Assembly: GCF_007990505.1 (NCBI RefSeq)
Contig: NZ_AP019822.1
Span: forward strand, 2,043,568-2,107,567
Length of the DNA: 64,000 bases
Direction: 5' to 3'
Source: Pseudoleptotrichia goodfellowii
Lineage (GTDB): Bacteria; Fusobacteriota; Fusobacteriia; Fusobacteriales; Leptotrichiaceae
Shown: positions 25,272 through 25,673 of the stretch, piece after piece
Position numbering within the stretch: position 1 is the first letter of the stretch
Layout of the letters: each line of letters opens with the position of its first letter
Notes under the pieces: model-generated
Seen by the model: only the letters and a program-made list of their open reading frames with translations
Told to the model about the DNA's origin: nothing
Databases searched by the model: none
Position numbers and translations under genes: made by a program

Positions 25272-25673
25272 TTATAATAATTCTATTACGAATAAAGGTT
25301 TCGCATAATCAACATTGGACTGATCGGAAATCAATATTTCTTTCAGTATACCGTTATGCTGAGATTTAATATCCGTGTCTATCCCGATAGTTCTTATTCT
25401 TGCAAGTTTCATTCCTTTATAAACTTCCATTCCTTTTTCAAGTTTTTCCAACAATATCTGTCCGACATTTTTTGATTTTATAACTTCTTCTTTTGCTGAA
25501 TTTTCTAGTTTTTCAATTACTTCAATTTTTTTAGTTTCATTTTGCGGTATTTCTTTTGAAGAAACTTCGGAATTTGTCAAAACAAGTTTTATTTTTCCGT
25601 ATTTGACTTTCATTTCAGCCATTTCCTCTTTTTTCAATATCTTCATCAACTCTTTTATATCTCTGAGCTCCAT
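25272..25673 (-). CDS. accB: AccB-like biotin carrier protein lacking the biotinylation lysine
   Basis: A 133-residue protein placed and shaped like AccB. The N-terminus MELRDIKELMKILKKEEMAEM resembles the BCCP dimer region, and the C-terminal domain keeps GMEVYKGMKLARI, NGILKEILISDQSNVDYAKPLFVIEL, the hammerhead fold pattern. The expected EAMKM biotin motif is replaced by RTIGI, with no lysine at the acceptor position. The thumb and the Ala/Pro-rich linker are also missing. It should therefore not carry biotin. It has its own promoter directly upstream and precedes accC. It may be a relic, a structural partner of AccC, or a regulator. Confidence 0.8.
   Translation of the reverse strand: MELRDIKELMKILKKEEMAEMKVKYGKIKLVLTNSEVSSKEIPQNETKKIEVIEKLENSAKEEVIKSKNVGQILLEKLEKGMEVYKGMKLARIRTIGIDTDIKSQHNGILKEILISDQSNVDYAKPLFVIELL

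Follow-up and report, generated by a model that had tools for sequence, protein, structure and literature searches.

The stretch of Pseudoleptotrichia goodfellowii DNA analysed here (64,000 nucleotides of contig NZ_AP019822.1, positions 2,043,568 to 2,107,567, hereafter the window) contains, directly upstream of the biotin carboxylase gene accC, a gene whose product resembles AccB, the biotin carboxyl carrier protein (BCCP) of acetyl-CoA carboxylase. This product, a lysine-free BCCP paralogue named AccB* in the following, is a full-length AccB homologue in which the lysine that accepts biotin is replaced by a glycine. The ATG start of its gene is preceded by a strong ribosome site, CATAGGAGGAGAG-ATG. 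An earlier note, made from the letters of this DNA alone, had read the gene order accB-accC-asp23-amaP-nusB, and this order was confirmed (Table 1). For accC, the ATG at 25204 is a better start than the TTG at 25216 with which the list of open reading frames begins.

Table 1. Features of the AccB* locus, in window coordinates.
Feature	Position	Strand	Evidence
AccB*, lysine-free BCCP paralogue, 133 aa	25272..25673	-	open reading frame, Pfam/TIGR scores, family profile, AlphaFold2 model, conservation beside accC
N-terminal helix (residues 3-15) and beta-hairpin (20-25/28-33)	25572..25673	-	AlphaFold2 model, profile match to 4hr7_B
Biotinyl-domain core (residues 61-131), without thumb	25281..25493	-	model, superposition, alignment
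Gly97 codon GGG, at the acceptor-lysine position	25383..25385	-	sequence, relatives, profile alignment, model
accC, biotin carboxylase	23849..25204	-	TIGR00514, 744 bits
asp23 (yqhY-like)	23386..23796	-	PF03780, 4.7e-26
amaP	22719..23372	-	NF033218, 68.6 bits, over cut-off
nusB, end of the conserved gene order	22274..22681	-	open reading frame, homologous position in relatives
dnaE, upstream neighbour of AccB*	25741..29196	-	open reading frame, position conserved in most relatives
Promoter-like site TTGAAA-17-TAAAAT, TG before the -10	25711..25739	-	scan, recurrence between dnaE and accB* in relatives

As a single sequence, AccB* scored 23 bits with the Pfam Biotin_lipoyl model (cut-off 22.1) and 29.9 bits with TIGR00531, below its equivalog cut-off of 115.2. 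A profile of the AccB* family matched the E. coli BCCP (4hr7_B) end to end, N-terminal helix included (E 5.5e-18), and placed the glycine on the lysine of the EAMKM motif. The earlier reading of RTIGI opposite EAMKM is therefore borne out by the profile alignment and by the predicted structure, and the lysine is gone; that the BCCP N-terminus and the biotinyl fold are kept is likewise upheld by the end-to-end match and by superposition of the core. Because a feature that defines a canonical BCCP, the acceptor lysine in EAMKM, is absent (Gly97), AccB* is not classed as a BCCP.

The AlphaFold2 model of AccB* (mean pLDDT 81, and 91-94 across most of the core) consists of an N-terminal helix, a beta-hairpin, a loose linker and the biotinyl core. 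Residues I96-G97 form the hairpin turn between strands 89-95 and 98-103, and therefore no lysine is hidden by a shifted alignment. A lysine in the beta-turn of a predicted structure was what the earlier note had named as fatal to its claim; a misaligned lysine was rejected on the predicted structure and the profile alignment. The core was superposed on 4hr7_G (Z 13.3, root mean square deviation 1.1, 70 residues aligned) and on 1bdo (Z 13.3, root mean square deviation 2.3, 73 residues aligned), and thus has the biotinyl-domain fold. The N-terminal helix and hairpin are, in BCCPs, the part thought to engage biotin carboxylase. In AccB* they precede a variable linker, as in a BCCP, according to the profile match and to a model of moderate pLDDT in this part. 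The N-terminal module is more conserved than the linker, the core is conserved at least as strongly as the N-terminus, and Gly71, Gly97 and Gly108 are invariant in the family. Seven thumb residues of the canonical AccB of the same genome are missing from AccB*. The absence of a thumb, pointed out previously, thus holds for the AccB* of this genome, but not for its Fusobacteriaceae relatives, which keep a loop of that length.

The distribution of AccB* was examined in 98 Fusobacteriota genomes, 81 of which contain an accC gene that stands alone and scores above the TIGR00514 cut-off. AccB* was found directly upstream of accC in all 81 (79 by protein search, and two more, L057 and L076, by position); the 17 genomes that lack a stand-alone accC also lack AccB*. 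The sequence was read for 74 of the 81, adjacency to accC being taken from coordinates for G005, G006, G011, G028, G029, G033 and G087. A glycine occupied the acceptor position in 74/74 sequences, whereas the lysine was present in 13/13 fusobacterial canonical AccBs and in 49/49 other AccBs of the set used for the tree described below. This alignment with Fusobacteriota relatives served as a test of local loss; no fusobacterial relative read had EAMKM at this locus, and a loss confined to this strain was rejected. The statement that the protein has lost its lysine is thus correct on the scale of the phylum, but not as a recent event. A canonical AccB was encoded away from the AccB* locus in 79 of the 81 genomes, the exceptions being G086 and G015 (82% complete).

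Some genomes departed from this arrangement in other respects. In G063 (L090:436-2268) and G064 (L091), which are complete or nearly complete and have accA, accC and AccB*, the one full BCCP that bears the lysine occurs as a fusion at the end of an OadA/pyruvate-carboxylase-B-type protein of 611-612 amino acids; acetyl-CoA carboxylase may borrow that BCCP domain in these two genomes. In G016, G017 and G018, accA was over its cut-off and neither accC nor AccB* was found.

In a wider survey, 80 accC loci from many phyla were inspected, with a BCCP within 3 kb at 71 and none at nine, among which were most of the cyanobacterial loci. The only lysine-free case among the 71 came from a Leptotrichiaceae metagenome-assembled genome. 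The other 70 loci, from other phyla, all had EAMK or ESMK and yielded no lysine-free BCCP beside accC, a result that holds for a sample and is not proof of absence. Similarly, every BCCP-like match read in 28 whole genomes of other phyla (30 loci) had the lysine, again in a sample that does not prove absence.

The ratio of nonsynonymous to synonymous substitution rates (dN/dS) of AccB* was mostly 0.06-0.2 between close relatives, with 0.44 for one very close pair, compared with 0.014-0.04 for AccC. AccB* is therefore under purifying selection, though less constrained than AccC. An unrooted tree was made of 95 AccB-type proteins, which are short, with the EAMKM columns left out. A single branch set all 33 AccB* sequences apart (bootstrap 100, Shimodaira-Hasegawa-like approximate likelihood ratio test 100), and 11 fusobacterial canonical AccBs fell in another group (100/99). 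From this separation, two AccB paralogues most likely existed before the phylum diversified. AccB* is an ancient lysine-free paralogue of single origin, neither a local loss nor a pseudogene; the earlier judgement that it is not a plain pseudogene was confirmed by the dN/dS of most pairs and by its retention across the phylum.

The remainder of acetyl-CoA carboxylase was looked for in the same genome (2.29 Mb, one contig, 99.97% complete). Its single accC is the copy in the window. A canonical AccB with EAMKLMNE is encoded away from the window, in a folD-accB-CBS-type locus (209114-209584), accD and accA are adjacent at 750328-752092, and there are three genes of the biotin/lipoate-ligase family. 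These are the items that the earlier note had proposed to search for, namely other biotinyl domains, accA/accD and birA. A true BCCP and a biotin carboxylase thus accompany AccB* in one organism, as they do BADC proteins in plants. Since a canonical AccB is present, AccC still has its normal partner and AccB* is an additional paralogue; an AccC left without a carrier was rejected. The suggestion that AccC serves another carrier holds in the sense that this carrier is the ordinary AccB encoded elsewhere, and no exotic one is needed.

In the relatives, the order dnaE-AccB*-accC-asp23-(amaP)-nusB was found wherever the examined stretch extended, the only departures being contig ends and divergent amaP or dnaE genes. 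The promoter scan was not above chance (14 sites found versus 15.7 expected), so that only conservation counts for the site upstream of accB*. Most of the relatives inspected have a conserved TTGnnn-spacer-TAAAAT site between dnaE and accB*. The separate promoter claimed for this operon consequently gains nothing from the scan, but is favoured by the recurrence of the site between dnaE and accB*. On the opposite strand, a near-consensus site (TTGATA-18-TATAAT, 11/12, positions 25249-25278) lies at the 3' end of accB* and points antisense into it; it may be due to chance.

Taken together with its relation to ordinary BCCPs, the conservation of AccB* suggests that it is probably an ancient non-catalytic BCCP paralogue serving as an extra subunit of fusobacterial acetyl-CoA carboxylase, which would dock on AccC and set the architecture or activity of the enzyme. 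AccB* would dock through the N-terminal helix-hairpin module used by ordinary BCCPs and take BCCP positions in the assembly of biotin carboxylase with BCCP; positions filled in this way would not be open to biotinylation or carboxylation. It would then most likely be either an assembly (“glue”) subunit made together with AccC, or a brake that cuts the number of active carriers. As a glue, it could hold AccC in a working oligomer while the separately encoded AccB does the chemistry; alternatively, it could dilute the working carriers. The assembly subunit is tentatively favoured over the brake, since no genome with a stand-alone accC lacks AccB* and the two are encoded together. In the Chloroflexus aurantiacus enzyme, a barrel of interlocking N-terminal BCCP hairpins ties two biotin carboxylase dimers together as a tetramer of higher activity, for which the biotinyl core is dispensable (PMC11077971); thus a lysine-free carrier made with AccC could hold an AccC oligomer. 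The non-biotin partner holding AccC, which the earlier note had offered as one possibility, is in this way the best supported of the readings, the docking itself being inferred. A bolder version is evenly poised in our estimation: the acetyl-CoA carboxylase of Fusobacteriota would have five components, among them a non-biotinylated BCCP subunit that is obligatory. This subunit would be a bacterial counterpart of plant BADC, would have arisen a single time before the phylum diversified, and would be required for the assembly or control of malonyl-CoA synthesis.

Several points weigh against an AccC-docking subunit. Gene neighbourhood and homology are no proof that AccB* binds AccC. The model is only moderately confident for the N-terminal helix and hairpin (pLDDT 78-80). 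In the E. coli tetramer of BCCP and biotin carboxylase, it is reportedly the BCCP cores and not the hairpins that hold the assembly together (PMC11077971), and therefore the docking mode of AccB* may differ. The parallel drawn with BADC is one of function, not of phylogeny.

The same anatomy would also suit a pure inhibitor, in which AccB* and the real AccB compete for AccC and the level of AccB* limits how much malonyl-CoA is made, with no help to assembly. Lysine-free BCCPs would create dead positions, and an inhibitory model exists for plant BADC (PMC11926652). However, a brake paired with accC would be made in step with the enzyme and not independently of it, and retention wherever accC occurs is more in keeping with an obligate subunit than with an optional brake, which leaves the pure inhibitor rather less than probable. 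In E. coli, AccB reportedly represses accBC transcription through its N-terminal part. AccB*, with its N-terminal module kept and its own conserved promoter directly upstream, might similarly regulate gene expression and not the enzyme. Its core is nevertheless as conserved as the N-terminus or more so, with an invariant glycine in the turn, and would be superfluous in a regulator acting through its N-terminus; we regard this explanation as very doubtful. It is also unlikely that AccB* ties AccC to the membrane module Asp23/AmaP encoded downstream, and so positions or controls the enzyme at the membrane. Throughout the phylum accB*, accC and asp23 keep this order, in most cases together with amaP and nusB, and when B. 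subtilis loses yqhY, its asp23 homologue, mutations in subunits of acetyl-CoA carboxylase are selected (PMC5437119), but the order accBC-yqhY occurs in Firmicutes with an ordinary AccB (PMC5437119), and such a link does not require a lysine-free carrier.

Two further explanations concern the protein itself. Lysines exist elsewhere in AccB*, and one near the turn might take biotin, or another residue might carry another group. The model places G97 in the turn, the only invariant residues are three glycines, and none of the hairpin lysines is conserved among relatives, which makes such a modification highly improbable. As for a decaying pseudogene carried along with accC, the weak matches to curated BCCP models and the loss of the catalytic residue would be expected of one. 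This explanation is refuted by the open frame, the conserved ribosome sites, the low dN/dS, the invariant glycine and the single clade spanning the phylum.

The closest known system is the BADC proteins of plants (Arabidopsis BADC1-3). They are BCCP homologues without the biotinylation (AMKL) motif that coexist with true BCCP and biotin carboxylase, bind both, and have been proposed as non-catalytic subunits of acetyl-CoA carboxylase (PMC11926652). A 2025 paper calls them unique to the plant enzyme and describes the dispute as to whether they act as glue or brake (PMC11926652). BADCs are nuclear-encoded plastid proteins, whereas AccB* is bacterial, chromosomal, encoded beside accC and present throughout the Fusobacteriota. 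AccB* is claimed to work like a BADC, a likeness that would be of function only, and is not classed as one. No plant BADC sequence was matched in the structure database with the family profile or with a short approximate probe, and none turned up printed in the text of papers. BADCs may likewise have a glycine at the acceptor position. With canonical AccB (TIGR00531; 4hr7_B, 1bdo), AccB* shares the N-terminal helix and hairpin, the linker, the biotinyl fold and the position before accC; it differs by the invariant glycine in place of the acceptor lysine, by the missing thumb in Leptotrichiaceae and by a score far under the TIGR00531 cut-off. The accBC-yqhY operon of B. subtilis has the same accB-accC-asp23 order, but it supplies the essential biotinylated AccB, whereas in Fusobacteriota the lysine-free protein occupies this place and the true accB mostly lies next to folD. 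Non-catalytic “glue” subunits that assemble or activate biotin-dependent carboxylases have been reported for other bacterial acyl-CoA carboxylases (cited in PMC11926652); AccB* is likened to them by description.

No report of a bacterial BADC or of a fusobacterial lysine-free AccB was found among the open-access papers searched. The nearest precedent found is a 2017 paper that counts Fusobacteria among the phyla with a conserved accBC-yqhY and treats the gene as an ordinary accB (PMC5437119). In Fusobacteriota, the accC-adjacent gene that is annotated or counted as accB, as in that paper, is unlikely to be the biotin carrier, so that metabolic models and target lists using it as the carrier need correcting. 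A bacterial case with small, co-encoded parts in culturable species would make the question of glue or brake testable in a simple system, and AccB* points to a control point of fatty-acid synthesis in a phylum of oral and gut bacteria.

Additional accC genes were seen in a few fusobacterial assemblies. One (L086, G044:C2:1444400-1450700) has a second accB-accC pair of proteobacterial appearance, which is probably contamination. In G071 (L087, L094), and similarly in G072, G077 and G079, a second accC lies ahead of a LamB/YcsF-like (PxpA-type) gene, while elsewhere in the genome KipI/KipA-like genes adjoin a canonical AccB of 147 amino acids, these names being given by eye. The second accC and this AccB, with the LamB/YcsF-like and KipI/KipA-like genes, look like a 5-oxoprolinase-linked carboxylase set.
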